Assembly (NCBI GenBank): GCA_030145325.1
Contig: JAQYVW010000010.1
Location: 1-63,027 of the forward strand
Direction: 5' to 3'
Source: Desulfurivibrionaceae bacterium
Lineage (GTDB): Bacteria; Desulfobacterota; Desulfobulbia; Desulfobulbales; UBA5123
DNA length: 63,027 nucleotides
A model generated the notes under the pieces. The model made no database searches. It saw only the letters and a list, made by a program, of their open reading frames with translations, and was not told the origin of the DNA. Below, piece by piece: positions 21,433 through 61,208 of the stretch (positions are counted from its first letter, which is position 1; each line of letters opens with the position of its first letter). Both the position numbers and the translations under genes were made by a program.

Positions 21433-24400
21433 TCAATTAGCCTCAATCAGAATCGAAACTGCGCTAACATCGGCACCGCTGATCGTAACCGTTCCACTGT
21501 ACGTTCCATAGCTACTCCGTACCGCGACCTCATAAACACCGTCAAAAGTTGTGCCAACGGCAGACTGCAAACCATCAAGCAGAAACACACCATGACTGTC
21601 GGTGCTACAACTCCGGGAAACGCCAGCCCCAACCACCTCCACCATTGCCTCTGCTAACTCTTCACCAGAATCGGCCCCACTATCACCATCCGCATCATAA
21701 TAAACGGTGCCACCATAGCTATAACCTGCGGTCATTGCCACCCCACCAAGGGCGTTATCTGCCCCACTCAAATCAATGGCCACCGCCTTGGCGACATCAT
21801 TAACGGTGATGACCTGCGCATAGGCATCAAGCCCCCCATAGTAGGCATCAACAAACCCCTCGGCATAAAATCCAGCCTTATAGTTGCCACCGGCAGGGAG
21901 ATCAACACTAAACAAACCCTGCCCACGTCGACTAACCCCGTTCCAGACCCCAGAGGCAGCATCCCAGACATTAATCCACACCAGCGTCTCGGCATCAACC
22001 CCATTAACCGCGCCCGAAAGGCTGTAAACAGTCACTGCCGCCAAGGATATATTCACGCCGCTGAGATCAGCATTGCTCACGGTTACGACTGTGGCGCTCT
22101 CTCTGCTTACGACATCGCCGTAATAAATATTCTTCGTTGTCGTCTCGGCCAACAAGCGATAATCTGAGGCCGCCCCCAAGCGGTTAATGGTATAGGGCGC
22201 ATTTCCTGCCTCATCAGCAAAAACGGTCACCGACTCACGGCAACCTGCAACCAGGCTGTCAGCAGAGACGGTGATTTTCTCATGGGCTGCCGCACCGCTG
22301 ATGATACCGGAGATGGAATAACCTGTAGCCAGAACACAACTGACACCAATGGGATTTGAGCCCGTATCGATATCAGAAAGAACCTCAAGAGGATGATTTG
22401 CCGGCCGAAAAGTCACCTTCAGATCGGTTACAACAGGCAAGCCGCCAAGGTTATAGATTACTGAAGACCCACTCCCCACCAGACTGGTTGCCGTCCAAGA
22501 CCCTGCCGCTTCACTACTGGCCTCTATCCATACCTCTTCTCCTGCCGCCAGACCGAAAATGGAGCCGCTAATGGTGTTGCCGGTGGTGAGAGGTAGATTT
22601 ATTCCCGTTACCGTGGTAGAGCCATCCACCAGCTCGGCGTCATTGATCCCGACAAGACCATCGAGACTATAATAACCATCCCGATAATCATCGGCATCGA
22701 TCCTCACCTTGTAGTCAACAGCAGGCAGCAAGCCCTTGATTTCATATTCAAGATCACTGCCGGTACCAATAATTTCTGTGGATCCGGTAAACTCTCCAGC
22801 AGCACTCCAGGCGACCAGGAGAGCAGTATCGCCAGCTTTAAGGCCACTAACCGTCCCGCCAATGGATATTGCCGAGCCCACAACCATATCGATACCACCG
22901 ACATCGCCTGCGGAAAGATCAACAAGGGTCGCCGTCGAACAGGAACCAGGGGCCAGCTCTACACCACCCGGCGCACCGACGAAGAAGCCGTTACCATACT
23001 CAGCCGAGGAGAGCGAAACCTGATAGTCGGTGGCTGCGCCCAAACCGGTAAGGGTAAATTGTGCTTCAGCACCGCTACTCTTCACCTCCACACTGTTCCA
23101 GAGGCCGGTGGCTTCACTCCATGCCTCCACCCAAAACAGATCCCCGGCAGAGAGACCGGAAATGGTCCCGGAAATGGCAAAGCCCTGGGTCGCCACCACC
23201 GAAACACCCGTCGCACCACCGCTGAAAAGGGCGCCCTCCGCCCAACCAGCCACAGTGCCAGCACTGGTTACATAGCCACTTTGATAATCGTCGCTACGCA
23301 AAGTCAGACGATAGTCGCCTGCCGCCAAACCGCCAAGGGTAAAGGGATCTGAACCACTGCCCCCGCCGCTAAGGGTTGTGAAGCCCCAACTATTGGCGCT
23401 TTGGCTCCAGGCTTCAATTATTACCGATTCACCGTTGCCCAGGCCACTCACCGTCCCCGAGATAGTCAAGCCTGGCGTCAAAACAAAGTCAATTCCGGGT
23501 ACCGAACCGATACTAACATCCACCGGGGTACCGTTTTTCCACAACGACTGCCCGGCATAGACGGCGAACTGATACCCTCCGCCGCCGGGTACCGAGACGA
23601 TATAATCAGAACCAGGGGCAACATTCAGGACATAAAAACCATTATCATCACTGACACCGCCTGCTTGCAGAGCAAGGGCTGTGGATGATGCTTCCACCCA
23701 CATCCCTGCCACCGGTGCGTCATCTTCACCAACCAGACGTCCGGAAATAGTCACCCCATTGGCTCGTGGGTCTTGCCCGGCAAGGTATTCTGCCAGGTTC
23801 GTCTCACCGTCACCATCAAGATCGGTAACCCCATCAGCAGCAACCATTGGCGCCAGGCCGTTGGTTAACTCCCAATTATCGGGCATGCCGTCGCCATCAT
23901 CATCGCTATCACTGTTATTGCCAATCCCGTCCAAGTCAGTATCAAGCCATTCGGTGGCGTCGTTGGCAAAGGCATCCACAGGGTTGACGATCCCGTCACC
24001 ATCGGAATCAACTTGGGCCACCGGCCCGGCAACAAACTTGAGCATGGTACCGCTGGTGGTCACCGCCCAACCGGTGGTGGAATCCAATAAAACAAGAGAG
24101 GCTAAATCAACGGTGGTCCCGCTGGCCTGCTCCTGCCACGTTGCACCGCCATTGACGGTGGACAAAACTAGACCGTTGGCCCCCACAACCGAGCCATAAT
24201 TAGCATCAACAAAATCAACACTGGTAAGTTCAGCCGTGGTGTTACTAGTCTGTTGCTGCCAAGTGGCACCACCATCAATGGTATGGAGAATCACTCCCTC
24301 CGCTCCCACCAGCCAACCGGTTTCGGCATCAATAAAGTCCATATGACCAAAAGCAACGGTAGAGGTGCTCAACCCCGTAGCTTGTAACGTCCAGCTACTG

Positions 24401-26067
24401 CCGCCATTCTCGGTATGGAGGATCTGCCGCACCTCGCCGTCCTTGCCGCCTGCGGCCCAACCGATGTTATCATCCACAAAGTGAATATCAACCAACTGCT
24501 CAGTAATCGATGTCTCCTGCAAGGCCCAATGGGCACCGCCATCGGTGGTGCGTTGAATGGTGCCGTTTTCACCGCAGATCCAGCCATTATAACGATCAAC
24601 AAAGAAGATTGCGGTGGGCCGCGATTGGCTGGCGCTGGTCTGCACACTCCAAGTTGCACCACCATCATCGGTATGGAGAATGCGGGCAGAAGTGGCTGAG
24701 CCGCCAATGGCCCAACCATGATTGGCATCAACAAAAGAACAACCGTAAAGGCTTTCGGTGGCAGGAAACTCCACCGGAAGTGTCTGGCTAAGCCAAGTGA
24801 CACCACCGTTAACGCTTTTAAGGATGGTACCGTTGCCACCCACTGCCCAGCCGGTGCTATCGTTGACAAACTGAACCTTGGCCAGCGGCTCTGGACTAAT
24901 GGCTGTAGCCCCGCCCCAACCTCCCTCAAAGCCAGAAGGAATCAGGGTGACGCTCACATCATCCAACAAGAGACCGGACGGAGCCAGATTCTCTGAAACA
25001 TACTGCACCGCAAGATTCAACGTTTGCCCGGAATATTCGCTGAGATCATAAGCAAACCTCTGCCAACTCGCGTTCTGGGAGCGAACTTCCGCAACAGTGG
25101 TCGTAAAATCGCTGAGCTCCCGCCCGGAGATGGAGAGCTTAAGGTTAAAGTCTTCAAAATAATTGGCGGTTATTGCCCGGGCCCAAAAAGAATAGATGGC
25201 CTTATATCCGGCCGGAATGCTCACCGGGGGCAAAAGCAGCCAGTCGTCATTTTGTGTGGAGTTATTCCACAAAGCCACCACCGACTTGACACCACTATGA
25301 GCATACGTCTCGGTGTCATCATAACCAACGGCCCAGGTTATCGGCCCGTAAGCATCGGCATCGCCATCATTGTTAATTGCTGTCCAACCCAGGGCAGCAA
25401 TGCTATTCGGGCCGGTGGCAGCATGCTCAAAACCTTCCTGAAAAATGTTGCGCGTTACCGAAAAGGCGCTGACCGTGATCATCCCGGTTACAGTTTTCGT
25501 TACCGGTGCCCCGCCATCACTGACGGTAAGCGCAACGGTATAGGTACCGGGGGTTACATAAGAGTGGGCGGGATGTTGCTCGCTGCTGGTGTTGCTGTCA
25601 CCAAAGTTCCAACTCCAGGAGGTAGGATTGCCCACCGATATATCATTGAACTGTACCGCCAGGGGCGCAGTGCCAGTGGTTTGATCAGCAGCAAAATCGG
25701 CAACCAGGGCAGTGCTGATAGGATAGGTAACGGTAATCAGGTCAGATTTGGTCTTGCCGGAACTGGTTGCGCCATCCGAAACCACCAGGGAAACCGAATA
25801 AACGCCGGGGGAAGTAAAGGTATGGAGAGGTGACTGCTCCGAACTGGTGGTGCCATCGCCGAAATCCCAAAGCCAAGAGGTAGCGACGCCTAATGAGGTG
25901 TCATAGAAATGCACCCCCAAAGGGGCAACGCCGATGGTAACGTCTTCACTGAAGTTGGCGCTCAGCACGTTTTCTGCCCCAGCCGGGGCCGGAAAACTCG
26001 CCAAGGAGAAAAAGCACAGCAAGAAACCCAGGCAAACAGAAGCATAAGTCAATTTCCGGTTGAGCAC
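21433..26067 (-). CDS. Secreted PKD / Ycf48-propeller / carboxypeptidase-regulatory-repeat protein (copy A)
   Basis: The product is 1544 aa with a GTG start at 26067 (AAGGA 5 bases upstream). It opens a clean Sec signal peptide ending PAPAGA; ATGs at 26106 and 26157 are in frame but lack a good site. Domains in order: two PKD domains (about 25-200; WLWDFGDGTTSSEQSP), a choice-of-anchor-J-like jelly roll (about 205-380), a seven-bladed Ycf48/BNR propeller (about 390-680; repeats of FVD-x5-GWAVG and NGGATW), a thrombospondin type 3 Asp-rich stretch (DSDDDGDGMPDNW), then six repeats of the ISGTVSGL-x-AGD type and an SdrD-B-like end with YYDADGDSG. No heme motif, sortase signal or membrane anchor is seen. 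It is last in operon A. An adhesive or matrix role is inferred. Confidence 0.85.
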   Translation of the reverse strand: MLNRKLTYASVCLGFLLCFFSLASFPAPAGAENVLSANFSEDVTIGVAPLGVHFYDTSLGVATSWLWDFGDGTTSSEQSPLHTFTSPGVYSVSLVVSDGATSSGKTKSDLITVTYPISTALVADFAADQTTGTAPLAVQFNDISVGNPTSWSWNFGDSNTSSEQHPAHSYVTPGTYTVALTVSDGGAPVTKTVTGMITVSAFSVTRNIFQEGFEHAATGPNSIAALGWTAINNDGDADAYGPITWAVGYDDTETYAHSGVKSVVALWNNSTQNDDWLLLPPVSIPAGYKAIYSFWARAITANYFEDFNLKLSISGRELSDFTTTVAEVRSQNASWQRFAYDLSEYSGQTLNLAVQYVSENLAPSGLLLDDVSVTLIPSGFEGGWGGATAISPEPLAKVQFVNDSTGWAVGGNGTILKSVNGGVTWLSQTLPVEFPATESLYGCSFVDANHGWAIGGSATSARILHTDDGGATWSVQTSASQSRPTAIFFVDRYNGWICGENGTIQRTTDGGAHWALQETSITEQLVDIHFVDDNIGWAAGGKDGEVRQILHTENGGSSWTLQATGLSTSTVAFGHMDFIDAETGWLVGAEGVILHTIDGGATWQQQTSNTTAELTSVDFVDANYGSVVGANGLVLSTVNGGATWQEQASGTTVDLASLVLLDSTTGWAVTTSGTMLKFVAGPVAQVDSDGDGIVNPVDAFANDATEWLDTDLDGIGNNSDSDDDGDGMPDNWELTNGLAPMVAADGVTDLDGDGETNLAEYLAGQDPRANGVTISGRLVGEDDAPVAGMWVEASSTALALQAGGVSDDNGFYVLNVAPGSDYIVSVPGGGGYQFAVYAGQSLWKNGTPVDVSIGSVPGIDFVLTPGLTISGTVSGLGNGESVIIEAWSQSANSWGFTTLSGGGSGSDPFTLGGLAAGDYRLTLRSDDYQSGYVTSAGTVAGWAEGALFSGGATGVSVVATQGFAISGTISGLSAGDLFWVEAWSEATGLWNSVEVKSSGAEAQFTLTGLGAATDYQVSLSSAEYGNGFFVGAPGGVELAPGSCSTATLVDLSAGDVGGIDMVVGSAISIGGTVSGLKAGDTALLVAWSAAGEFTGSTEIIGTGSDLEYEIKGLLPAVDYKVRIDADDYRDGYYSLDGLVGINDAELVDGSTTVTGINLPLTTGNTISGSIFGLAAGEEVWIEASSEAAGSWTATSLVGSGSSVIYNLGGLPVVTDLKVTFRPANHPLEVLSDIDTGSNPIGVSCVLATGYSISGIISGAAAHEKITVSADSLVAGCRESVTVFADEAGNAPYTINRLGAASDYRLLAETTTKNIYYGDVVSRESATVVTVSNADLSGVNISLAAVTVYSLSGAVNGVDAETLVWINVWDAASGVWNGVSRRGQGLFSVDLPAGGNYKAGFYAEGFVDAYYGGLDAYAQVITVNDVAKAVAIDLSGADNALGGVAMTAGYSYGGTVYYDADGDSGADSGEELAEAMVEVVGAGVSRSCSTDSHGVFLLDGLQSAVGTTFDGVYEVAVRSSYGTYSGTVTISGADVSAVSILIEAN

Positions 26068-26182
26068 GTTCGTCCTTGCAATATGAATATGCATGTTTTT
26101 ATCCATTACGAATCCATAACTTGCTCTGTTGCCAAAAGCGGGTGAGCAAGACGGCATAAATTCACCACCAACTCTACAACCA

Positions 26183-29100
26183 TCATGGCGCAGTCACCGT
26201 CACCAACTTATCACGGGTTGCAATCCCAGTGGCAGTCCCATCGGCCTCAACGGCATAAAAATTGTAATGCAGTATACCGTCACCCAGATAGCTTAAGGTT
26301 AGCGTCTTCGTATAGATTTTTCCGTCGGAGTAGACGGTATCACCACCATCATCGGCGACCATGTCTACCTTTTCATCGGCGTCCAGGTAATCGCCATCGT
26401 CATTGCGGTCGATCCACACCTGGATAGTGGTCGGTGCATTATTGTCGGTATCGCTATACCAAACGCGGAAGACAAAGCTACCTGCCGCCCCACTATCAGG
26501 ATCAACACCATCGGAGAGATAGTTTGCTTCTTCCGTCCAGGTCAAAATCGGCGTAAAATCAGCACCGGCATAGAACTCATCTGCCCCCATGTCCCAGTCA
26601 GTACTATCTGGACGGACATCATCATCAATATCTTCCGTTGTGGCTCCAGGGTAAGCGACATCATCCGCAGCGCTATTGATACAGTCAACACCAGATGTCA
26701 GGTGAAAATCACCATGGATGGTTGGCACCCCTGCCGTGGCCTGACGGAGATCAACGAATCCAGGATCATAGCTATATGACAAAGGCGGAACAGTGATATT
26801 GTTACTGCCTGTACCTCCCCAGCCACCATCCACATCGGAATAATCAACGGTAATCAATGCTCCGGAAATATCCACACCGGTACCTGCCGAACTATTTCCA
26901 TAAAAAATACTGCTGATTACCGTTGTGGCAGTGGTCGAATACAGACCACCCCCAGTTCCCCCATAATTACCGGAGAAAGTACAGCTATCAATAGCCAGAG
27001 CTCCAAGGTTATATATTCCGCCGCCATAACGCCAACTATCAGCGAGAGTTGCATTACCCGAGACAATACAATTTGTCATGGTCGTGGTCACCCCGGCAGC
27101 CAAGTATAAACCAGCCCCATATTTTTGAGAATAGTTCGCACTAATCTTCATCTTGGAAAGATTCAAAACGGTACCACTAGCACTGTTAGCAAATATGCCA
27201 CCGCCATTAGTATTACTGGCAGTAGCTTTATTCCTACTTATGGAGCCACCGGTAAAATCAAGGTCAGCGCCATCTATGATATAAATTCCGGGCCCAATCG
27301 TTGCGACATTGCCGTCTATAGAGCCGCCGGTAATGGTGGCGGATGTTGTATCAGAACCTTTCAGATAGAGGCCAGCATTTTCCTGAGTCGCAGTATTATT
27401 ATCAATGTGGCAGTCAGTCATCGTCAATGTTCCCAAGGTGCAGTAAACCGTACCCTTGCCAGTAGTATTATTGCTGATACTAGTATTGTTAACGATTGCG
27501 CCGGCGCTGGCACCTGAGATATAGATACCGGAACCCAATAAAGCAGCCGGATAATTTTCTGTTATGTTGCAATTTTGAATGGTCGGCGTTGAACTACTGC
27601 CAATCTCAATGCCTCTGGAAGACCAGCCCCCTGTATACTGGTTGGTGAGGGTGAAGCCATCCAGAACTGCTGTAATACCCGGATTTGTATTGGTGAACTT
27701 AACCACCGGCTTATCACTGGCAGTACCATTAATCAAGGTAGCATCCATACTCCCCATGGCCTTGACCGTAACCCCCTTGGTATCTGTTGGAAAAGTGACA
27801 TTCTCACTGTAGGTTCCTTCAGCGACAAGAACGGTATCTCCATCTGAAGCAGCGGTTATACCACCCTGGATAGTTGTAGCAGTACAACCAGAAGCACAAA
27901 CGGTTATGGCGTCAAGCACGGTCACGGTCTGGGATCCAACCACCGGATTATTGCCAGTGGCTTCCTTAAGCAGGCTATCCTTGGCATAAAACCGGTACGG
28001 AACAGTACCTGCGGCTACATAGGGGACAGCCACATCAGCGGAATAAAGCTTACCGTCAGTATAGGTGGTGTCGCCAGCATCCACTTCCGTCATAGTTATT
28101 TTTTCATCGGCATCATAGCCATCGGCAGGATCATCCTGATCAACCCAAACCTCAATTGTGTCGGGAGGGTTATTATCAGCATCCGTATACTTCACCCTAA
28201 AAGTAAAGGTCAGGCCACCATAATCACTGTCTGGATCAACACCGTCGGTTGTATAATTCGCTTCGCCAGTCCAATCCAGCACTGGCGCAGCATTGGCAAT
28301 GGTGACCGCCACAGTGGCATCGCCGGTGGGGGTGCCGGTGGCAGTATCAAGGCTGTCCGTGGCAGTAAAGGTGTAATTAATATCACCAATGGTGCTCAAG
28401 GTGATATCAGGGTCGGTATGATACAGCTTGCCATCGGTGTAGTCAGTATCAACCTCAACCTCAACCAGATTCACTTTTTCATCAGTATCGAGATAATCGG
28501 TGTCATCGTTCTTATCCACCCAGACCTGAATAGAACTGGGCGCTTCATTATCGACATCGGTGTATTTGACCCTGAACTCATAGCTGCTGCCCGCTTCCGC
28601 GCTGTCAGGATCAACGCCATCCGCATCAAACACGCCGCTATCACCAACCCAGGCCAGCACCGGCACATTATTTGTCACTGTAACAGTGTTAGCAGTTGGG
28701 CTGGTCGGATCACCGATTGCGGCTCCATCAACCGCCTCACCACCATCGGAGGCATAAAAACGATATTCCAGAACAGTGGATGCCACTACCCCAACCTTGT
28801 CCAAGGCCACAGTCTTGCTATAGTCCTTACCGTCGGTGTAGGTGGTATCATTGGGATCAACTTCGCCCATGGTGATCATTTCACCGGCATCGGCGAAATC
28901 AGCGTCATCATTCTTATCAATCCACACCTGGATTGAGCTGGGTGGATTATTGTTAGCGTCGGTGTACTTGATCTTAAAAACAAAATTACTGCCGCTGAGA
29001 TCACTATCCGGATTAGCGCCATCGGTACCATCATAGCCTGCATCAGCGAGCCAGGAGAGGGTCGGCGCGTCGTTAACCAGCAGCGTGTGATTGGCAACCG

Positions 29101-32100
29101 GCGTTCCTGTTGCCACAGCAACACCGTCATCACCATAGAAGCGATAGTAAAGACCATTATTGTCGGTATAGTTGAGGTTCATGCTTGTGCTATAGAGTTT
29201 TCCGTCGGTATAGGAGGTGTCACCACCATCAACTTCGACAAGAGCAACCTTTTCACCAGCATCCAGATAATCACCGTCATCATTCTTGTCCACCCAGACC
29301 TGTAAAGTCACCGGCGGATTATCATCGGCATCGACATAATTTATCCGGAATTCAAAACTTGCCCCATCCGCACCGATATCGGGATTGACACCATCGCTGC
29401 TGTAATTCGTTTCCCCTGTCCAGGAAAGCGCCGGTGCACTATTGATACCTGTTATGACCTCATCGGACCCCATGTCGTAACCAGCGCCGCTATAACGAAA
29501 ATCACCATCTATATCGTCATCAGGAGCGCCAGTGGCCGTGCCCATATCCACTACCGGCGAATCAACCTCCAGGTGATAATCCCCGGAAGTGATGGGCGCA
29601 AGGGTATAGCTGGTGGCTGAAACAAACATCGGGTCAACATTGAGGTTATTATTCCCTTCATAGCCGGTCTGGCCGATATCGGAATAACTAGCTGTGACGG
29701 CCGTACCGCTGATCTCATCGGTGACGGAGGAGACGGCCTTATTTCCCCACATAATGGTGTTAGTTAAGGTTGCAACAGCACTGTCTACCGCACAGATACC
29801 TCCACCAAGGCCGAGCACCGCGCTATTGCCACTGAAGGTGCTATTAAAAATAGTTGCGTTGACGGAGGCACCATTCAAGTAAAATCCGCCCCCGTTTATT
29901 TCGGTAGCTTTATTGCCGGTTACCAGGCAATTTGTGAAAGTAACCGGCACCGTCGCGGTGGCATAAACGCCACCGCCCCAATTCGTGACGGAATTCCCGG
30001 CGATCACACATCTGTCCAGAGTGGGTGTCCAGGCGCCGTCACCTTCCAAATAAATTCCCCCACCATAACCACCAGCGATATTGGACAAAATTGAGGTATC
30101 GGAAATAGTAAAGACGTTGTTGGTGGTGCCGTTGTCAAACAAGAGCCCCCCGCCCCTAGCTCCTTCATTATGGTCAAAGGTGCAACCGGAGACAGTCAAC
30201 GGATTCACGTCAACCGCATACAGACCACCACCGTAAGATGTTCCCCCAGAGTTGATATTATAAGAAACGGTGCTATCGGTGATTGAGGCTACAAAGGTAG
30301 CCCCGACATTCTTCAGATACAGACCTGCGCCATACGCCGTTGCGGTACTGTTCTTTATTTCCGAACCTGCAGAGATTGAAAGCTGAATATCACTGGTAGC
30401 AACGGCAGCGTTGGCATAAATACCACCGCCTTCGTGTGTCGCAGTATTGCCGTCAAAAGTTGAATTAACCATGGTAAACGAAGAGGTGGCCCCACCGGTG
30501 CCGTCATAAAGATAAAAACCACCGCCATCTGCGGCGCTATTCCCTGCCACCGTGCAACCACTCATCACCACCGTACCGCCCTGCTCCATGAAGATAGCGC
30601 CACCGTTTCGACCAGCACTATTATTAGAAAACGTCGAATCAGTAATGGTTACAACAGAGGAGGAGGTGGTGGTCAGATACAGCCCCGCAGCGTCGTAAGT
30701 GGTGCTGTTGCTGTCAATAACACAATTATTGATGGTCGGTGATGACTCACTGATATAGATGCCGGCCCCGTAAAACCCCCAGGTTCTGGCGCCATTTTGG
30801 ATCTTCAAACCATCCAGCACCGTATCCGCACCATTAATCAAGCTAAACACCGGGGTATTGCCACCACCATCACTACCATCGATAATGGCCATGGTTGGGC
30901 CGTTAATGGCGCGGATAGTCAGATCCTTGCCATCAATGGTAATATTTTCTGTACAGGTTCCATCAGCCACCAAAATGGTATCGCCGTCACTGGCGGCAGT
31001 AATGGCTGTTTGCAGACTTTCTCCGGGGCAGGTGACGGTAACAGCGTCCACCAGAAGGGTGACGATACTGTCATTGGCCGGGGTGCCGGTAGCATCAACG
31101 GTGCCATCCGAAGCATAAAAACGGTAGTTAATCAAACCATCACCTACCGCATCGATATCCACGTCCTTGCTGTACAGCTTACCATCGGAGTAATCGGTAT
31201 CACCAGCGTTATCCGCAACCATGTCAATCTTCTCGCCGACATCCTCATAATCATCGTCGTCGTTCAAATCCACCCACACCTGCATGGAGGTCGGAACATT
31301 ATTATCTACGTCAAGGTATTGGATCTTAAAGGTGAAAGTTTCGCCATCGATACCGGTATCAGGATCAACACCATCCCGGACATAATTTTCGGCATTGGTC
31401 CAGGAGAGCAAGGGAGCGCTATTGAATTCATTAACGGTGAGGGTTCGATCAGCGGTGGGAGTACCGGTGGCAGGGGTACTCTCAGAATCCTCGGCCGCAA
31501 AGTTGTAGATCAAGGCGCCATCGCCAGCATAGGCAAGGGCGGTGGTGGTGGTAAAGATTTTACCATCGGTGTAGTCTTCATCGGCTCCATTCGCTTCGGT
31601 GAGGGAGATCTCTTCTCCACCCACATCCCCGCAAGTACCGCTGTCATCCTTATCCACACAGACCTGAATTAAAGAAGGGGCCAGATTAGAGGCATCGGTG
31701 TACTCAACCCGGAAGGTAAAATCACTGCCGCCAACCGCAGTATTGGGACTAACACCATCGGAGGTATAGCCATCCTCGCCGGTCCAATCAAGGGTTGGGG
31801 CAATCTTGCTAACGGTGATGGTTTGCGTGGTTAGGGTAACTGGATCGCCGGTGGCATCGGCATTTTTATCGGCGGCATAAAACTTATAATGTAATTCGCC
31901 GTCACCGGCATACAAAACCGACTGGATTTTTTTATACAACTTGCCGTCGGAACAGTTTCTGTCGCCGGAATCAACTTCCAGCATGTCGTATTTTTCATCG
32001 GCTTCATAGGTACCGCTGTCATCCTCATCCATCCAGAGCTGGATTGTCGCCGGCAGGTCATAGTTAGCATCGGTATAATTAACCCTAAAATAAAAACTGG

Positions 32101-34387
32101 TGCCGGAAACACCGCTTTCCGGATCCACCCCGTCAACGGTATAATTTGCTTCACCGGTCCAGGCCAAAACCGGTGCGGTCTGCGGTGCCGGCGGGGTCCG
32201 GTGGTAGATCTGATACGAACCATGGCAAACATGACATAGATTCCCACTGGACGTGGCGTTCCAATACGTCCCCTCACTATCAGCCAAGGTGGTGGCGGAA
32301 GGATCGCTGACCCCATCCTTGTGATACCACATCTCCATACCGGCACCCTTATCAATCAAATTGCCGGTCCGAATCATGCCCAGCTGCGAAGAACCATGGA
32401 CGTTATGACAGGAGATACAGCTGATATTACTGTTCTTGTAATCATCGGGGGGATCTCGCCAATCGGCTGAAAACTGAATGCCAAAGCTGGTGGCGTTCAA
32501 GTGGTATTCATGGGCATTGATCGGCGCTGTCAGGCTTCGCCCGGCATCCGGCGATTCACCAAGATCGTCGCGGAAACTAGTTCCGTAATCATTACCGGTA
32601 AGCAAATATTTTTCCGGCATATGACAACCGCTGCTGGAAAAACAGAGCCGGTAATTTTCCTCAACAGGCGGCACCGAGGCTTGATTCAGCGGTAAGTTTA
32701 TCGGATTCTCACCACCAACCAGATTAAGCCGGTAACTTGCCTGATACTCATCGGAATCACAACCGTCACTGCAATCAAACGACCTGGCATTGCCATCGAT
32801 ATGGCTGGTGGAGGGATCATGACAATCAATACACTCCTTGCCAGCTCCGGCAGTCAAGCCACCGCTGGCCGGATAATCTTCCGTGCTCGGCAGGCCATGA
32901 CCGGTTTTATAAAAACCCCATCCTGGGGTGGCGCCGCTATTATCGTAGATGTAAGCTGGGGATACCGCATCTTCATCACCGATCACATTGGGGGCAGCAA
33001 TGGCTTGAATCACCGAAGGATTTTCGCCGTGGCAGGTGGCGCACCATTTTTCTTTACCGGCCCGCAGGGTGACATCGTCAGACTCGTAGATACCATCCGC
33101 CCAGTTGGCCTTGGCTCCCACGACGGGATCATCAACCCCGTCATAGGTGCCGTTCTTGCTGTGGCAGGTATCACAGACATCGGTCTCGGCAAGGTTGAAA
33201 TTGCCATCAGCGTTACCGTCAACGCCTGACTTAAAATAGGGAATTTTGGTTATATCATGGCAATCTGCGCAATAGATCCCCGGCCCTTTGGCATCATCAC
33301 TATCCGTTTCGGTATGGGTGGAATGGCTGTGGCTGGTACCGGTGCCTTCACTGGCCGTAGCGCCCGCAGCATAGGGTGAGGTCATATCTGGATCAAAATT
33401 AGTGCCGGTATCATGACCATGGCAGGTCACACACGGCTTACCGCCGCCATGCCCAAACCCGGCGTTGTGATCATGACACTGAATACAATAAACGCCCGCC
33501 TTGCCATCAAGATTTTCATGCAGTTGCTGACTGCCGGTGCCATCGTTGCGAAAATGGGTAACTTGGGTATGACAAACCTCACAAACCCCATCACGGGTGG
33601 CATCGCCATCGGCAAAGGAGTTGGCGCCGGTCTTATCATAGAACTTCACTGTTTTGGTACCACTGTTAGGGGTCTCGATCTCATCGCGAATCAACTTGCC
33701 ATAGTAGATAGCCATGGTGCTGCCCGCAGTGAGGTTCGAATTGATGGGACCGGTGACGGTGAGGGTATCGGCGGTGTTGCTAACAATTTTATAATTAAAG
33801 CTTAAGTATGTACCATTGACAGCGAACGAGGTAAATGCGCTGCTGGTATTGGGAACCACCAGATAACCAACCCATTGGTCTTCGGTCCAACCGGCGCCGC
33901 TTACGGTCACAGTGGTGGTATCGATGGCAGCCACGGTGCCGGTAGCAAGAGCACAAGCATTGTTAAATGTCCAACCCCAAGTAACCTGGCTATAATACCG
34001 CGCCTGCTCATTATAATGGGGAAAATGGCAGGTTCGGCACTCCACCGTACTGGCAGGCATAACAGGTAAAAACCTGTCATCGGTGTTTAAGGTGGGCCAA
34101 GTGTAGTTTAGACTGTTTGTGGCCAGGCTGGAATGATTCTTGACAAAAGTAGCATCGGTATCATTATGGCAACTCCAACACAACCTGTTCCAGGGGGTAT
34201 CATCGATATCCGACGGGGCAGTTTCCCAATCAATGAGTACTGATTCATCGTAGTGACAACTCCAGCAGGTGATATTATTGGTGGAGTTATGGGGATAATC
34301 CAGGTTGCGCTCGTCAGCGCCAACCATGCCCGCACAGAAGAGCAGGCCGGTGATGGCGACCAATACTTTTAGGAGTATAGATTTCAT
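26183..34387 (-). CDS. Giant secreted multiheme protein with Ca-loop repeats and beta-helix blocks (copy A)
   Basis: The product is 2734 aa, starting at 34387 with AAGGGA 8 bases upstream and a Sec signal peptide ending MVGA. Residues about 35-735 hold twelve CxxCH c-type heme motifs (for example CWSCH, CRTCH, CEVCH, CVTCH) and one CX5CH (CFSSSGCH). Next come eight copies of a roughly 100-residue domain: three before, four after a first beta-helix block (about 1115-1645), and one after a second block (about 2165-2605). The domain reads WTGE-x-NY-x2-DGVDPD, then VWVDKNDDGDY and GDT-x-YTDGKLY; the Asp-rich loop resembles a calcium site. The helix blocks carry GGGIY and FSNN repeats as in chlamydial Pmp proteins. 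Family knowledge: CxxCH hemes are attached after Sec export. A role in surface electron transfer is inferred. Confidence 0.88.
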   Translation of the reverse strand: MKSILLKVLVAITGLLFCAGMVGADERNLDYPHNSTNNITCWSCHYDESVLIDWETAPSDIDDTPWNRLCWSCHNDTDATFVKNHSSLATNSLNYTWPTLNTDDRFLPVMPASTVECRTCHFPHYNEQARYYSQVTWGWTFNNACALATGTVAAIDTTTVTVSGAGWTEDQWVGYLVVPNTSSAFTSFAVNGTYLSFNYKIVSNTADTLTVTGPINSNLTAGSTMAIYYGKLIRDEIETPNSGTKTVKFYDKTGANSFADGDATRDGVCEVCHTQVTHFRNDGTGSQQLHENLDGKAGVYCIQCHDHNAGFGHGGGKPCVTCHGHDTGTNFDPDMTSPYAAGATASEGTGTSHSHSTHTETDSDDAKGPGIYCADCHDITKIPYFKSGVDGNADGNFNLAETDVCDTCHSKNGTYDGVDDPVVGAKANWADGIYESDDVTLRAGKEKWCATCHGENPSVIQAIAAPNVIGDEDAVSPAYIYDNSGATPGWGFYKTGHGLPSTEDYPASGGLTAGAGKECIDCHDPSTSHIDGNARSFDCSDGCDSDEYQASYRLNLVGGENPINLPLNQASVPPVEENYRLCFSSSGCHMPEKYLLTGNDYGTSFRDDLGESPDAGRSLTAPINAHEYHLNATSFGIQFSADWRDPPDDYKNSNISCISCHNVHGSSQLGMIRTGNLIDKGAGMEMWYHKDGVSDPSATTLADSEGTYWNATSSGNLCHVCHGSYQIYHRTPPAPQTAPVLAWTGEANYTVDGVDPESGVSGTSFYFRVNYTDANYDLPATIQLWMDEDDSGTYEADEKYDMLEVDSGDRNCSDGKLYKKIQSVLYAGDGELHYKFYAADKNADATGDPVTLTTQTITVSKIAPTLDWTGEDGYTSDGVSPNTAVGGSDFTFRVEYTDASNLAPSLIQVCVDKDDSGTCGDVGGEEISLTEANGADEDYTDGKIFTTTTALAYAGDGALIYNFAAEDSESTPATGTPTADRTLTVNEFNSAPLLSWTNAENYVRDGVDPDTGIDGETFTFKIQYLDVDNNVPTSMQVWVDLNDDDDYEDVGEKIDMVADNAGDTDYSDGKLYSKDVDIDAVGDGLINYRFYASDGTVDATGTPANDSIVTLLVDAVTVTCPGESLQTAITAASDGDTILVADGTCTENITIDGKDLTIRAINGPTMAIIDGSDGGGNTPVFSLINGADTVLDGLKIQNGARTWGFYGAGIYISESSPTINNCVIDSNSTTYDAAGLYLTTTSSSVVTITDSTFSNNSAGRNGGAIFMEQGGTVVMSGCTVAGNSAADGGGFYLYDGTGGATSSFTMVNSTFDGNTATHEGGGIYANAAVATSDIQLSISAGSEIKNSTATAYGAGLYLKNVGATFVASITDSTVSYNINSGGTSYGGGLYAVDVNPLTVSGCTFDHNEGARGGGLLFDNGTTNNVFTISDTSILSNIAGGYGGGIYLEGDGAWTPTLDRCVIAGNSVTNWGGGVYATATVPVTFTNCLVTGNKATEINGGGFYLNGASVNATIFNSTFSGNSAVLGLGGGICAVDSAVATLTNTIMWGNKAVSSVTDEISGTAVTASYSDIGQTGYEGNNNLNVDPMFVSATSYTLAPITSGDYHLEVDSPVVDMGTATGAPDDDIDGDFRYSGAGYDMGSDEVITGINSAPALSWTGETNYSSDGVNPDIGADGASFEFRINYVDADDNPPVTLQVWVDKNDDGDYLDAGEKVALVEVDGGDTSYTDGKLYSTSMNLNYTDNNGLYYRFYGDDGVAVATGTPVANHTLLVNDAPTLSWLADAGYDGTDGANPDSDLSGSNFVFKIKYTDANNNPPSSIQVWIDKNDDADFADAGEMITMGEVDPNDTTYTDGKDYSKTVALDKVGVVASTVLEYRFYASDGGEAVDGAAIGDPTSPTANTVTVTNNVPVLAWVGDSGVFDADGVDPDSAEAGSSYEFRVKYTDVDNEAPSSIQVWVDKNDDTDYLDTDEKVNLVEVEVDTDYTDGKLYHTDPDITLSTIGDINYTFTATDSLDTATGTPTGDATVAVTIANAAPVLDWTGEANYTTDGVDPDSDYGGLTFTFRVKYTDADNNPPDTIEVWVDQDDPADGYDADEKITMTEVDAGDTTYTDGKLYSADVAVPYVAAGTVPYRFYAKDSLLKEATGNNPVVGSQTVTVLDAITVCASGCTATTIQGGITAASDGDTVLVAEGTYSENVTFPTDTKGVTVKAMGSMDATLINGTASDKPVVKFTNTNPGITAVLDGFTLTNQYTGGWSSRGIEIGSSSTPTIQNCNITENYPAALLGSGIYISGASAGAIVNNTSISNNTTGKGTVYCTLGTLTMTDCHIDNNTATQENAGLYLKGSDTTSATITGGSIDGNVATIGPGIYIIDGADLDFTGGSISRNKATASNTNGGGIFANSASGTVLNLSKMKISANYSQKYGAGLYLAAGVTTTMTNCIVSGNATLADSWRYGGGIYNLGALAIDSCTFSGNYGGTGGGLYSTTATTVISSIFYGNSSAGTGVDISGALITVDYSDVDGGWGGTGSNNITVPPLSYSYDPGFVDLRQATAGVPTIHGDFHLTSGVDCINSAADDVAYPGATTEDIDDDVRPDSTDWDMGADEFYAGADFTPILTWTEEANYLSDGVDPDSGAAGSFVFRVWYSDTDNNAPTTIQVWIDRNDDGDYLDADEKVDMVADDGGDTVYSDGKIYTKTLTLSYLGDGILHYNFYAVEADGTATGIATRDKLVTVTAP

Positions 34388-34402: not shown

Positions 34403-35143
34403 TCAGTTTTCCGCTTTTACTTTCTTAGCGTTTGCCGCCAACCGTTCCCTGGCAACTCTCGCCATCAGACTTTTGGGGAAATAGTGCAAAATTTTGTCAT
34501 AGCCCTCTTTCGCAGCGGCAATCTTACCCAACCGATATCTGGCCTCAGTCCGCCAAAACAGAGCCAACGGCGACGAAGGCGCGCCGTTTTTCTTATTGAC
34601 CACCGTCTCTAAATACTGGCTGGCAAGACGATCAAGCTCCGCCCACTGCCCCAGCCGATAAAGCCCCTTCAGCACCTGATGGGAGACAACCACCCGCATC
34701 TTTGATTGCGGGTAGCGGCGGTTAAAGTCCGCATACAAGCGTAAGGCCTCTTCTTTTTGTGGCGGCTGCACATCCAGCATCATGGTTTCCAACAAATGCC
34801 AATAACTCTCTTGCGCCAACGGCACATCGGGACATTGCTTAATAATCTGCTGATACAAGACGATTTTTTTCGCCGCCTCCGCTGCTCCCCGCCCCCCGCC
34901 AATCTTGTAAATATCATTGAAGAGCTTGCTGGCCAGACGCTGTTGGGCAGCCTTACTCAAGACCACCCCTTCGGCGGCTGTGGCCTTGAGAGAAACGCTA
35001 TTACCGTCTCCCGCCCTTGCAACAAGGGGCAAGAGAAGCAAGATAAAAGTCAACAAAAACAGGCAACGATTAGCCTTCAAGACATACCCCTTTTTGACCA
35101 TCGCACCACCAGAGAACATCATCACACCCGCCTCAAAACTCAT
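34403..35143 (-). CDS. Secreted TPR-like protein, unique to operon copy A
   Basis: The product is 246 aa with a signal peptide (FLLTFILLLLPLVARA, then GDGN). The rest is helical with tetratricopeptide-like pairs: FNDIYKIGGGRGAAEAAKKI, LRLYADFNRRYPQSKM and AKEGYDKILHYFPKSLMARV, reminiscent of BamD/YbgF-type repeats. The start at 35143 overlaps the NHL stop codon (ATGA, 35140-35143), indicating coupling; an internal ATG at 35101 would give a tighter signal peptide. The giant protein gene starts 15 bp downstream. Operon copy B has no equivalent. It may assist assembly or secretion of the large products. That is inference from position only. Confidence 0.8.
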   Translation of the reverse strand: MSFEAGVMMFSGGAMVKKGYVLKANRCLFLLTFILLLLPLVARAGDGNSVSLKATAAEGVVLSKAAQQRLASKLFNDIYKIGGGRGAAEAAKKIVLYQQIIKQCPDVPLAQESYWHLLETMMLDVQPPQKEEALRLYADFNRRYPQSKMRVVVSHQVLKGLYRLGQWAELDRLASQYLETVVNKKNGAPSSPLALFWRTEARYRLGKIAAAKEGYDKILHYFPKSLMARVARERLAANAKKVKAEN

Positions 35144-38100
35144 TTCCCGGCCCAGAAATCATCCGGGCCGCTGTCCGTCCAACCGCGAGCAGTGCCGATA
35201 AAACGAATGACAGGATCAACCCCCACCAGAGGACCAGTGCCGCCCCGAGCACCACCTACGCCAAAGGCGCCCAACTGGTCAACTAAGAAGGTAACCTTAC
35301 CAGCGCCATAGTTGATGGGTTTGACAATTTGGTTCACCGGCACCACGGTGGCAACGCCAGGCTGCAAACCGGCAATATCAGCCGCATAACAGATCACCAC
35401 TAGCCCGGACTCAAAATCACCCACCGCAACTTTGCCAGGATCGAACTTGACGGTGACGTATGCCTTATGAATATCAGCATTAATAATGGCTTCGCCGCTG
35501 GCGGTATTGGTTAAGGCCAAGTCCACAATCTCCGAACAGGTTATAAGGCCCAGCCCAGCCGCTTGCGGATCAACCTCCTTCATCACCAGGGTGGCATTGG
35601 CCAAAATATCGCCACCCACCCCGCCAGCAGGCAGGGCAACCGCCGAATTCCCCGAAGCAGAGGTGACCATGGCCACGCTGCCACGATGGGGAGAAGCAAT
35701 GCTGGTTTCTTCCGGGGTATTCAAGCCCAGCAGATACTCATACCCGAAGGTGGCAAAATAACCGCTGTTTGCAGATCTTGCCGCGCCGGTATCGCCACGC
35801 ACAAAGATATTCGCCGCTTCGCCAACCTCAGGAGCAGGAACCGTGTAGGAATAAACAGAACCTCCGCCGGACGAAAGCAGAGAACCGGTAACCTCAGCAG
35901 CAGAGTCTGAGGTGCCGGAAAAGGCCTGCACTTCTCCGGCCGAACCGTTAAAGGCCGGAGAAGCGGTAATGGAGAACGTGACCTCGGGAGAGGCGCCATC
36001 GTCGATGACGGCAAGTCTGGTCACCACATGTAGAGAAATATCCTTGCCAGTATCTCCGGCCACCCCATCAACCACGCCCTCATTCTCAGCCAAGTTATAG
36101 ATAGAGTCAGCCCGCATGGCCGCAAGGCGGTATGGCCCGCCACCGGCAGCAAAATCATCAAAGGCAAGAGAATAGGCGCCGCTTACCGCATCGGCTAGAA
36201 CCTGCACCGGATTACCATGACTATCGTTAACAACCGCATTGTCCGCCCGGAGCAGCACCACCTTAGTTCCGGCCCCGGCCGGAAGCACCGATCCAGAAAT
36301 AACTGCCGAACTGCCGATGACATCCAAAGATACATTGAGAGGCGCACTTAAATCATTGGTACTGACGATAACCGGAACATAACCATCCTTTTGCACCGCA
36401 AAGGCATAAGTCGCGCCAGTATCCGCCAGTGTCGGCAGGAGAGCAGTGCCATCCGCACCGGCAACCGCTTCGCAACCCTGATCATGGACAGCGGTGACCA
36501 CTGCGTCCGGCAAGGAAGAAGCGCCATCATCCACCGAGACAACCAGTTGCCGCATGGGCATGATCACCTGCGGACCGGCAATAACCGTATCCAAGCCAGC
36601 TGCGGCCAGCACCAAGTCGTCTATCTGCGCCTGCACCTGAAAAGCGGTGACGGCGGCAATTCCGGGAGTCAGAGTGAGACTGTTGGTGGCTGCAGTAGAA
36701 CTACCCAAGGAGCCAAAAGCCGGGGCGTCAAGAACCTGACCATCCTCAGCGAGCAATGTCCAACTGAAATCACCACTGGCGCCGGTTACGGCATAGGCAA
36801 CACTGCCGCTGGTATCCTCGATATTCGCAAACATCGGCGCAATGCGCATGGGCACCCGGACGTTGAAGGTGTCCGGGGCCAATCCCGCATCATAACGATC
36901 CTGAACCTTTACTGTATACACCCCAGCGCCGTTGGCAAACAACGGATCCACAGGCACCGAAAAGGTATTGCCAGTGGCGTAATACCACCAGATCATATTC
37001 CCCTCAGCATCGAATACAAACCAATTAAACACCCCGGAGGAGCCTCCGGTGGCTTGAAAAACTTCTTCTCCGGCATCAGCAAGAATAGGATAAGTAGAGG
37101 CATCATCGGCAAGATAATTATCTGCTTTGATAATCTTGACGACAACATCAGGGTCAAGTTCAAAAACCGCTTGCACGGTATGATCAGAACTTACCGAAGC
37201 AAAGGAATAACTGTTATCAACCACCTGCGCCCAGACCGAAACACCATCGACCAACAGATCCACCAGTTTATAACCCGACTGGGGAGTCGCCGTGACAATC
37301 TGCTCGGAGCCAGAGGCCACCTGGGCTCCCCCGGAAAAAACAACATCGCCGTTATCATCTTCCGAGGCAGCAAAAAAGAAAGAGTCTGGAGGAACAAAAT
37401 CCGCAGCCACCGCATGATCAGCAACCACAATCAGATCCAGGGTCTGCGAGATAACCGCTTCAACCACACCATCCACCGTGGCCTGGGCAAGATGGTAGCC
37501 ATCGTCTGGAACCAGGGAAAAGGAGATTTTTTCACCCTGCTCGGCGTTGATGCTGCCAGACGGAGTGATAACGCCACCCGCTCCGGCAACAGCCGTGACG
37601 ATATGGCTTGCCCCGGTACCAAAAACATCAACCACCCCACCCGACAAAGAGGCCACGTAAAGACGCCCGGTATTCCGACTTACCGTCAGCCCCACCGGGG
37701 TGCGGAGAGGATTGGCAACATCTTGGAGATAACCGAGGTGACTACCACTGCCATCGTAGACCTGGACGAGATTACTCAGGGTCTCAGTGACATAAATCCG
37801 GCCAAGACTATCAACGGCAACCTGGGTGGGTCTCTTCAACAGACCTTGGGCCTTGCGCTCATCAAGAGTACTGTCAAGCAAAGGTAAGCCAAAACTTGCT
37901 GTGAAGCTGCCGCTCAGATCAAAAACCTGTACCCGCCCGGCCTCGGATACCTCCACCAACGGACGGTCAACCACTACTACTTGCCGGGTTAGCTCATTGA
38001 CGGCAACCCCCAAGGGAGAATGGAACAGGCCATCAGTGCTCCCGGAACCACCAAAGGTAAACTGCAAGGTGCCACCAGAACTATATACGGCGACTAAGTC

Positions 38101-38541
38101 GGCATTACTATCCACCACATAGACAGAGCCAAAATCATCAACCGCGATGCTTGTCGGCTTGCCTATTTCGCCATCGCCACTACCGAGGGCAAACAAAAAA
38201 CTCAAATCAGGCCCGAAGACCAGCACATTATCGGCGTCATCATTACCAACATAAACCCTACCGTTGCCATCCACCGCCACACTGATCGGCTTGGCCAAAT
38301 CGGTTATTTGCCCCAAAACACTGCCGGTGCTGCGATAAACGGTAACCGTGTCATGCACGGAATCCGCCACATAGACATTATCAACCCGGTCGAGAGCTAC
38401 AGCCACCGGCGATCCAGCCGCAATGGCACGTAACCACGCCAAAGACGGCATGGTCGCCGCACGAGAAACCCCACTCCCCACCCACAACGAGCAAAAAAAC
38501 ACGACAGCAAACATCAGGAACAATCCTGCTTTATTCTTCAT
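35140..38541 (-). CDS. Secreted six-bladed NHL propeller protein with repeat-rich C-terminus (copy A)
   Basis: The product is 1133 aa. Start 38541 (MKNKAGLF) matches the copy B start; a longer frame from 38583 adds 14 residues. After the signal peptide (ending SRA) six NHL blades cover about 30-320: SPVAVALDRVDNVYVAD, KPISVAVDGNGRVYVGN, KPTSIAVDDFGSVYVVD, SPLGVAVNELTRQVVVVD, RPTQVAVDSLGRIYVTE and TPVGLTVSRNTGRLYVAS. Two InlB-type B-repeat-like segments follow (AGGVITPSGSINAEQGEKI; TPQSGYKLVDLLVDG), then Ig-like and carboxypeptidase-regulatory-like segments, ending in GWTDSGPDDFWAGK. There are no heme motifs. NHL propellers usually bind proteins or polymers. I recall NHL genes beside some Geobacter extracellular cytochrome genes but cannot check it. 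It lies 51 bp after the cytochrome and overlaps the TPR gene. Confidence 0.87.
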   Translation of the reverse strand: MKNKAGLFLMFAVVFFCSLWVGSGVSRAATMPSLAWLRAIAAGSPVAVALDRVDNVYVADSVHDTVTVYRSTGSVLGQITDLAKPISVAVDGNGRVYVGNDDADNVLVFGPDLSFLFALGSGDGEIGKPTSIAVDDFGSVYVVDSNADLVAVYSSGGTLQFTFGGSGSTDGLFHSPLGVAVNELTRQVVVVDRPLVEVSEAGRVQVFDLSGSFTASFGLPLLDSTLDERKAQGLLKRPTQVAVDSLGRIYVTETLSNLVQVYDGSGSHLGYLQDVANPLRTPVGLTVSRNTGRLYVASLSGGVVDVFGTGASHIVTAVAGAGGVITPSGSINAEQGEKISFSLVPDDGYHLAQATVDGVVEAVISQTLDLIVVADHAVAADFVPPDSFFFAASEDDNGDVVFSGGAQVASGSEQIVTATPQSGYKLVDLLVDGVSVWAQVVDNSYSFASVSSDHTVQAVFELDPDVVVKIIKADNYLADDASTYPILADAGEEVFQATGGSSGVFNWFVFDAEGNMIWWYYATGNTFSVPVDPLFANGAGVYTVKVQDRYDAGLAPDTFNVRVPMRIAPMFANIEDTSGSVAYAVTGASGDFSWTLLAEDGQVLDAPAFGSLGSSTAATNSLTLTPGIAAVTAFQVQAQIDDLVLAAAGLDTVIAGPQVIMPMRQLVVSVDDGASSLPDAVVTAVHDQGCEAVAGADGTALLPTLADTGATYAFAVQKDGYVPVIVSTNDLSAPLNVSLDVIGSSAVISGSVLPAGAGTKVVLLRADNAVVNDSHGNPVQVLADAVSGAYSLAFDDFAAGGGPYRLAAMRADSIYNLAENEGVVDGVAGDTGKDISLHVVTRLAVIDDGASPEVTFSITASPAFNGSAGEVQAFSGTSDSAAEVTGSLLSSGGGSVYSYTVPAPEVGEAANIFVRGDTGAARSANSGYFATFGYEYLLGLNTPEETSIASPHRGSVAMVTSASGNSAVALPAGGVGGDILANATLVMKEVDPQAAGLGLITCSEIVDLALTNTASGEAIINADIHKAYVTVKFDPGKVAVGDFESGLVVICYAADIAGLQPGVATVVPVNQIVKPINYGAGKVTFLVDQLGAFGVGGARGGTGPLVGVDPVIRFIGTARGWTDSGPDDFWAGK

Positions 38542-38592
38542 GCCCTTCGCCTCTTTTTTATCCAAACCCAAAAACACCCGCAAAGCTCAGCC

Positions 38593-39747
38593 TCAATCCT
38601 TGGCCGAATGACATTTAAAACAACCGGTACCAATCACGTCTTCATGCGCATCAGTGCCGCCAGTAGCCCCGGTTCTCATATTATTACCTTCCCACCTGAG
38701 CATATGCTCGTAGGGACTACCGTGCGCTCGATGACATGAAAGGCACATGACCGTATCAAACTCCTTAACCACCTCAGCATCAGCAGGGGCACCCAGCGGC
38801 ACAGGCTTCCCCACCGGCACCAACGGATCATAAGCCATACCGATAATCCCGCCGGCCGCATTGGCAAATTCTCCGGCATCAGGCATTGCATAGTCGGCAG
38901 GATGCCTAAGCCACGGACTCTCGCTGGCGCCAGAGCCATTATCGGTATAAATGGTCTCAAATCCAGGGGAATGAAACTTGGCATGACAACCGCCACAAAA
39001 TTTACCCATGGATTCAGGTATATCCCCCAAATCAGACCCTGTCCCCTTATAATAAACATTGTGATTGGTCGCCGACGGCTCATACTCCCAATCGGAAGAC
39101 TCAATACCATTAACCGGGCCACCACCATTGCCCAGATGCTCACTATCCAGGGGCGCACTCAGAAATCTGTACCAACCACTTTCATTATTTTCCGGATCGC
39201 CACTGGCCGGGTCGGTACCATGATGCTTAAGGTAGTTATGGCAGCCCTGGCAACCATTACCCGGCGCAGCCAAAGCCAAGGAGGTATGACAACTGTTGGC
39301 ACAATAGATTGAGCCGGGCGCAGTGGTTAAGGTTACATCCGGTTCCGAGATCCCATAAACATTATGACCGTAACGATCACCATGCCCCGCATCCTCAACC
39401 CAATAGAAATTCCCCCCGGCCAAAGGCTTGGCTGGCTCAAGGCTGTTGTAAACAATGGGCACTATCGTCCCACCACCAATATCGATCTTAGTCTCGGTGG
39501 TATCACTGGAATGACAACCCACACAGGAATTAACCAGAAGGGTTGGAGCTGGCCCGCCGGTATAAACGGGTTGGCCGCCTTGACTGTTGTGCATGGTATG
39601 GCAGTTACTACAGATACCCGTAACGCTCGCAAAAACAACGCAGGGCGAGAACAGAATTGAGAAAAACAAAACAACAGGGCCAAGGACAAAACATAAAAGA
39701 AAAGAATCACCCATTCCTTCTTCATATATGTGTTTTATTAACAACAT
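38593..39747 (-). CDS. Secreted multiheme cytochrome c, seven heme motifs (copy A)
   Basis: The product is 384 aa. A hydrophobic signal region (about 15-40) ends VVFA and is followed by SVTGICSNCHTMHNSQ. Six CxxCH motifs are present (CSNCH, CVGCH, CQGCH, CGGCH, CLSCH, CFKCH) plus one CX3CH (CANSCH) between the second and third. Many additional histidines (for example HGDRYGHNVYG, KHHG, TNHNVYY) could supply distal ligands. The ATG at 39747 aligns with the copy B start and lies about 50 bases from the promoter; the frame opens at 39798, at the likely transcription start, so that ATG is unlikely. It is first in operon A. Role: probably a periplasmic or surface electron-transfer partner of the giant heme protein. 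Confidence 0.88.
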   Translation of the reverse strand: MLLIKHIYEEGMGDSFLLCFVLGPVVLFFSILFSPCVVFASVTGICSNCHTMHNSQGGQPVYTGGPAPTLLVNSCVGCHSSDTTETKIDIGGGTIVPIVYNSLEPAKPLAGGNFYWVEDAGHGDRYGHNVYGISEPDVTLTTAPGSIYCANSCHTSLALAAPGNGCQGCHNYLKHHGTDPASGDPENNESGWYRFLSAPLDSEHLGNGGGPVNGIESSDWEYEPSATNHNVYYKGTGSDLGDIPESMGKFCGGCHAKFHSPGFETIYTDNGSGASESPWLRHPADYAMPDAGEFANAAGGIIGMAYDPLVPVGKPVPLGAPADAEVVKEFDTVMCLSCHRAHGSPYEHMLRWEGNNMRTGATGGTDAHEDVIGTGCFKCHSAKD

Positions 39748-39802
39748 AACATGGTGCCTTGTTAACTCCCCGGGGCGCAAAAAGCGCATAAGTAGCAAGC
39801 TT

Positions 39803-44161: not shown

Positions 44162-44470
44162 ACCGTTCTCCAAGACATTTACCGCCGACACTACAGTTGT
44201 GCCCGTCATCCCGTTAACCGGCGCGAACCACTCTTTTTAATTCCCTGTCCATAACCACCAGCAACCTGCCAACAACTTTCCCAAAAAACTTGTCTGTTTA
44301 TAGTACGTATTCGCAAGCACCCATGTCGAAACCACTGCCCAACGGTCACGAATTATCTTTTATATCATCACCATGAGCACAGATTGCTGTCCCCTTTTCA
44401 ATGCCCTATCTGCCACTGGGCCTGGTAGGTACCGCAGCTGCCGATGAACTATTGGTGGACGGTGATCGTG
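44162..44470. other. Intergenic region inside operon B
   Basis: This 309-bp gap lies between the giant protein stop and the PKD gene start; the matching gap in copy A is only 115 bp. I found no terminator hairpin, RNA gene or clear promoter. The extra length could hold a processing site or a secondary promoter for the PKD gene. Confidence 0.4.
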
Positions 44471-61133: not shown

Positions 61134-61162
61134 AAAAATAAAACTCCCAAAAACCAAAAACC

Positions 61163-61180: not shown

Positions 61181-61208
61181 ACAACTAATTATGCATTACA
61201 TATGCGCC

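Follow-up and report, generated by a model that had tools for sequence, protein, structure and literature searches.

An apparently undescribed bacterial family of giant multiheme cytochromes with a predicted Asp-loop and beta-helix stalk, encoded beside OmcS homologues

The window (the whole 63,027-nucleotide stretch of Desulfurivibrionaceae DNA analyzed here) encodes two tandem copies, A and B, of a giant protein in which a predicted multiheme head is continued in the same chain by a stalk of acidic-loop (Asp-loop) domains and beta-helices; each gene lies in a cassette with a homologue of the nanowire cytochrome OmcS (Table 1). From the sequence, and at slightly better than even confidence, we lean toward a secreted electron-transfer protein whose head would be carried on a calcium-stiffened stalk and would work with the OmcS-like cytochrome, possibly as an anchor or contact. 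The giants apparently form an undescribed protein family, since curated families cover the head by generic models only; searches of the open-licence literature turned up no account of a bacterial multiheme cytochrome that carries a stalk or a beta-helix.

Table 1. Features of the two giant genes and their cassettes in the window
Feature	Position	Strand	Basis
PKD/Ycf48-like propeller/carboxypeptidase-regulatory-domain protein, downstream of giant A	21433..26157	minus	domain search
Giant gene A, heme head and stalk, 2737 aa	26183..34396	minus	single intact open frame
Asp-loop domain 8, residues 2616-2735	26192..26551	minus	HMM
Beta-helix block 2, about residues 2166-2612	26561..27901	minus	Pfam, HMM
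Asp-loop domains 4-7, about residues 1655-2163	27908..29434	minus	HMM
Beta-helix block 1, about residues 1119-1650	29447..31042	minus	Pfam, NCBIfam, HMM, model
Asp-loop domains 1-3, about residues 742-1117, Ig-like beta-sandwiches with EF-hand-like acidic loops	31046..32173	minus	HMM, model
Heme head, residues 28-740, 12 CxxCH and one CX5CH	32177..34315	minus	motif count, alignment
CX5CH motif CFSSSGCH, residues 585-592	32621..32644	minus	motif scan, alignment
Predicted Sec signal peptide, residues 4-27, end VGA/DE	34316..34387	minus	sequence read by eye
Small TPR/CpoB-like protein between NHL protein and giant A	34403..35143	minus	domain search
NHL beta-propeller and InlB-type-repeat protein, copy A; gap of 9 bases to S6	35140..38583	minus	domain search
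S6, OmcS-like cytochrome, 6 CxxCH, copy A	38593..39798	minus	phmmer, profile
PKD protein downstream of giant B	40133..44209	minus	domain search
Giant gene B, 2926 aa, tandem paralogue	44471..53251	minus	55% identical to giant A
NHL beta-propeller protein, copy B	53292..56729	minus	domain search
S6b, OmcS-like cytochrome, 6 CxxCH, copy B	56775..57902	minus	profile

Integrity of giant gene A

The initial annotation described a heme region of about 700 residues fused to about 2000 residues of repeats, and both the translation and the HMM domain map of giant A bear this out: the signal peptide and heme head come first, and behind them two beta-helices separate groups of three, four, and one Asp-loop domains. 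The start that it gave, position 34387, is also the likelier one, because paralogue B and the giant at locus L022 begin at the Met that is residue 4 of the giant A frame.

Contiguous giant genes are present in independent metagenome-assembled genomes (MAGs; 2600 aa in L022 and 2663 aa in L023), and the fusion of head to stalk recurs in several phyla. Comparison with orthologues gave dN/dS values of about 0.08 to 0.23 for head and stalk alike, in all segments with a computable dS; these values are rough, as several segments have a dS close to or at saturation, and they point to purifying selection on head and stalk segments. Together, the independent assemblies and dN/dS argue that giant A is neither a chance frame nor an assembly join, leaving almost no probability that the giant is a gene fusion, assembly artifact, or decaying gene; for the window copy we regard artifact or decay as refuted. 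Some copies may nevertheless be broken or misread, as at L032 (8897-19384) in a Desulfuromonas MAG, where a single in-frame stop, within the beta-helix, breaks a head-stalk frame that otherwise runs on for about 3,500 codons.

An ordered stalk

Eight Asp-loop domains and two beta-helix blocks had been read from the letters of giant A, and profile methods recover exactly these. The HMM places the Asp-loop domains as 3 + 4 + 1, the count of eight is exact in both giants, and acidic loops are present in 8 of 8 domains of each copy. Both beta-helix blocks are confirmed by Pfam (Beta_helix, E 3.8e-33) and by the HMM map. Calling the blocks "Pmp-like" suits the repeat, for which NCBIfam POMP scores 18.6 against a 15-bit cutoff, but not the family, since Chlam_PMP (E 0.0036) falls below the Pfam cutoff.

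A structural model of residues 742-1650 has a mean pLDDT of 75.7 and consists of beta-sandwiches and a beta-helix; beta-helix block 1 is mostly at pLDDT 80-97 and ends in a choice-of-anchor Q cap, while confidence is weak in two linkers and over the final 70 residues. Over its first 910 residues, the stalk is thus predicted to be ordered, in the same chain as the heme head, and not disordered. Pfam had no match for the Asp-loop domains. We infer that the Asp loops bind calcium from loop sequences such as DKNDDGDYLDADE; at locus L053, the stalk is extended by Calx-beta domains, another type of calcium-binding domain.

When the PDB was searched with the Asp-domain profile, the one sequence relative was a domain of the xanthan-degrading enzyme 6fhj (E 2.6e-8), and Foldseek with the stalk model returned chains of Ig domains as well as this xanthanase. 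Such a relative would suit a redox-decorated adhesin or matrix protein, whose main function would be the grip of its stalk on polysaccharide, mineral, or a partner cell, with the hemes storing or buffering charge. Beta-helices and Ig domains typically occur in surface proteins and in proteins that bind carbohydrates, and the pectin-lyase-like domain of the ANME MHC-C cytochromes was proposed to recognize partner cells (PMC9012536). However, it is the head that all family members have in common, whereas the stalk varies, and other cytochrome genes are closely linked to the giant; we therefore consider an adhesin with secondary hemes unlikely.

The other main rival of a working head on a lasting stalk comes from OmcZ, whose 50-kDa precursor loses its C-terminal Ig domains to the protease OzpA before polymerization (PMC9473688, PMC12307469). 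The heme region of the giant is N-terminal too, with Ig-like domains directly after it, so the head might itself polymerize once a protease had removed the stalk as a pro-domain or secretion passenger. Yet neither cassette contains a gene for a secreted protease or an OzpA-like serine protease, the head profile search found no OmcZ chain, and the stalk is far longer than such maturation would need; moreover, Asp-loop domains 4-7 are conserved as much as the head (79-80% versus 78% identity to orthologues). Maturation of this kind seems quite unlikely to us.

The heme head

All CxxCH motifs of giant A lie in the head, where the heme motifs span residues 44-724. Although its CX5CH motif departs from the usual spacing, the same alignment column holds an ordinary CxxCH in several relatives, and its two Cys and its His are invariant in 21 of 21 rows, which suggests about 13 hemes rather than 12. 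Giant B has the same 12 CxxCH and CX5CH, and 13 heme sites were found in each full-length row that lacks an intervening masked stretch. Among 16 full-length heads, the 13 motif His and 11 further (distal) His are invariant and 14 further His are conserved in at least 15, so two His ligands per heme are possible by count. With its CxxCH motifs and conserved distal His, the head is, as judged from sequence, a c-type multiheme cytochrome.

Pfam recognized the head through generic cytochrome c7/c3 models only, and PDB searches with the head sequence and the head profile yielded no convincing relative; neither matched OmcS (6ef8). We also rejected the head as an OmcS-like homologue of S6, the two profiles aligning at an hhalign probability of 14% over 22 columns. 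Since head and S6 profiles are unrelated, it cannot simply be assumed that the head caps an OmcS filament. The AlphaFold2 model of the head, built with 21 sequences, has a mean pLDDT of 43, which gives no evidence of disorder because the program ignores heme and the alignment is shallow.

The OmcS-like neighbor and the duplicated cassettes

The similarity of S6 to OmcS extends along almost the entire chain, with phmmer giving E 4.7e-8 and the profile E 7.5e-18. Besides six CxxCH and one CX3CH, S6 retains the OmcS motif CHTMHN, which includes His16 of the OmcS chain; we take His16 to be the inter-subunit heme ligand. Such a ligand has been described (PMC12307469). By sequence S6 belongs to the OmcS family and would be a candidate for filament formation. 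In their motif make-up (six CxxCH and one longer motif, CX3CH) the S6 genes of the window also resemble DA_402 of Desulfurivibrio alkaliphilus, an OmcS-like cytochrome strongly induced in iron oxide respiration (PMC12545173).

The initial annotation had set the giant against small polymerizing subunits (OmcS, OmcE, and OmcZ), a contrast that is incomplete because the giant gene itself has an OmcS homologue beside it. OmcS homologues occur in both window cassettes and near the giant in L022, L023, L045, L052, and L091, and their being encoded side by side suggests that the two proteins probably work together. S6-like genes were found in 35 of 58 relatives and are thus more widely spread than the giant.

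The two cassettes run on the minus strand from 57902 down to 21433, with gaps within cassettes mostly of <50 bases. Cassette A has the order S6, NHL protein, small TPR protein, giant A, and PKD protein; cassette B has S6b, NHL protein, giant B, and PKD protein. The small TPR/CpoB-like gene occupies the equivalent position in L022, L023, and L052, and the PKD protein also lies downstream of the giant in L022 and L023. In the head tree, giant B falls outside the group formed by giant A and two congeneric MAG copies; thus, the duplication is older than the split between giant A and those copies.

Other features of the region deserve mention. The PKD proteins that end both cassettes are large and secreted, with MAM-like and carboxypeptidase-regulatory domains; the Ycf48-like propeller of the cassette A protein is absent from copy B. 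Upstream of the cassettes lies a 625-aa TPR-repeat protein (59280-61157, minus strand), with distant TPR matches near cytochrome genes in L016 and L061. By eye, 61191-62063 (plus strand), close to the upstream boundary of the duplicated cassettes, encodes a REP-associated (Y1) transposase-like protein.

The omcS gene is reportedly among those listed in a study of cyclic-dinucleotide riboswitches in Geobacter. Our Rfam scan of the window and seven relatives found no riboswitch at gathering score, and narrow scans upstream of S6 and S6b gave chance-level matches only. We considered the NHL protein as the counterpart of GSU2505, the neighbor of Geobacter omcS, and found this unsupported, GSU2505 being described as hypothetical. 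The genome to which the window belongs contains dsrA, consistent with a sulfur-metabolizing Desulfobulbales bacterium.

Distribution of the family

When named genomes were searched at the protein level, 22 loci emerged, all in MAGs, whose labels include Desulfobulbaceae, Nitrospirae, Calditrichota, and Desulfuromonadales, among others; within the window's own order, 14 of 258 genomes searched by profile have a full-length head (>700 bits). After removal of duplicates, head plus Asp-loop domains are present at about 25 distinct loci. In complete loci, the head is directly followed by three Asp-loop domains (two in L024, L053, and L092) and these nearly always by a beta-helix; the longer proteins usually continue with a further four Asp-loop domains (L025 has seven here and L092 one) and a second beta-helix. 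Short members have about 1460-1560 residues and long ones 2600-2750; the longest, with Calx-beta domains, has 3298. More distant proteins have parts of the head, with other stalks or none, and up to 43 CxxCH. Because the Nitrospirota head of L024 groups beside the window's clade in the head tree (support 96/92), the family appears to have moved between phyla.

Two further frames came to light. In a MAG labeled Gammaproteobacteria (MC-03), L039 1-5235 (minus strand) holds an open frame (1745 aa or more) with 43 CxxCH, composed of tandem copies of segments of the giant's heme head. The same-order genome G012 (L050 10060-19999 and G012:C1) contains 13 matches to the OmcS-like profile and also a frame that stays open for about 5,800 codons, the first 3,313 of which carry 33 CxxCH.

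NHL genes are concentrated near the giant: they make up 15 of 75 genes within two places of it but, at greater distance in the same loci, 1 of 74 (Fisher P = 2.6e-4). Among 23 distinct loci, eight have no NHL gene in the stretch examined, several of these loci being incomplete. In the Calditrichota locus L030, the genes upstream of the giant encode CcmF, an NrfH/NapC-like cytochrome, a c554-like cytochrome, cytochrome b, a DmsE-like multiheme protein, and an NHL protein, a run that reads as a putative electron route from quinol to the surface. The NHL neighbor at L030 has a type IX sorting domain above cutoff, which points to the cell surface.

Proposed function

The predicted signal peptide of giant A is a plain Sec signal without lipobox, paralogue B has no cysteine there, and Pfam and NCBIfam recognized no sorting, anchor, or secretion domain at the giant A C terminus. 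These features, together with the periplasmic attachment of heme, would also suit a reservoir or conduit for electrons that stays inside the cell, in the periplasm. We regard this as very unlikely, as a rod of some tens of nanometers would fit the periplasm poorly, the NHL partner at L030 carries the surface-sorting domain, and OmcS itself is extracellular.

For the secreted electron-transfer protein that we favor, Sec export would be followed by heme attachment in the periplasm and then by release or display beyond the outer membrane. An extracellular location is suggested by the surface-type domains, by how long the stalk is, and by the sorting domain at L030. Calcium would make the stalk rigid, with a contour of roughly 50 nm if each Ig domain contributes 4 nm and each beta-helix rung 0.48 nm. 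The head would pass electrons between the neighboring OmcS-like cytochrome (as filament or subunits) and the cell surface or an outside partner, e.g., a mineral or another cell, while the stalk, through its grip on a surface or matrix, would hold the head in place or at a distance.

The most speculative step is the role as anchor or contact at an OmcS-like filament, which we hold as possible but doubtful. More specifically, and in our judgment rather unlikely, the giant may supply what OmcS-type nanowires in Desulfobulbales lack so far, an anchor or terminal contact, with the head joining the end of an S6 filament and the stalk fixing the filament to cell, mineral, or partner cell; if so, the family would be a dedicated nanowire-docking module that has spread horizontally among several phyla. 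Nanowire anchoring and the sites of electron entry and exit have been described as open questions (PMC12307469), and a conserved giant encoded with an OmcS homologue is a concrete candidate here. The family may connect or anchor bacterial "electric wires."

Comparison with known systems

The S6 genes, but not the giant itself, are homologues of OmcS, which forms nanowires (6ef8); with DA_402 they share the motif make-up. Clusters of OetABI, OmcX, and OmcS genes in Desulfobacterota combine OmcS-like with other cytochromes (PMC10553843). They are, as here, cytochrome clusters in related bacteria, although a giant head-stalk protein does not feature in the parts of that account available to us; within the window, no Oet-type conduit was seen. 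Desulfuromonas acetexigens has giant cytochromes with up to 86 heme motifs (PMC12133095); by description, they are of high molecular weight, like the giant, and are expressed during extracellular electron transfer. No MtrB/PioB porin was found when the window's own genome (168 contigs, 98% complete) was searched for the MtrB type, and we do not assign the giant to an MtrCAB conduit.

Chlamydial Pmps are autotransporters; they have beta-helix repeats of a similar general kind but no heme. The giant lacks a Pfam autotransporter barrel and ends in an Asp-loop domain, so we do not class it with them. Closer in plan is the OmcZ precursor of Geobacter, whose multiheme part is N-terminal and has tandem Ig-like domains behind it. 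OmcZ differs in having 8 hemes, a size of about 50 kDa, a stalk cut off by OzpA, and no beta-helix, and no sequence match to the giant was found; with 13 sites against an eight-heme head and no OmcZ chain retrieved by profile, we do not place the giant in the OmcZ family.

The initial annotation knew of no described family with this combination. This holds in that no curated family covers it beyond generic heme and beta-helix models, but it overlooks ANME MHC-C (PMC9012536) and the Ig domains of the OmcZ precursor (PMC9473688), because of which the architecture is not categorically new. MHC type C proteins of anaerobic methanotrophic (ANME) archaea, like the giant, join a very large multiheme cytochrome to a right-handed beta-helix, there a pectin-lyase-like region, and have a putative role in extracellular electron transfer (PMC9012536). 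By description, their order is reversed, the beta-helix region being N-terminal, and large ANME cytochromes have 20-80 heme sites; in contrast, the giant has an N-terminal head of about 13 predicted hemes, then alternating Asp-loop Ig domains and beta-helices, and belongs to Gram-negative bacteria, where it is encoded beside an OmcS homologue. The fusion of a giant cytochrome with adhesive repeats, as described in archaeal ANME, thereby extends to bacteria, in a family whose domain grammar is fixed.
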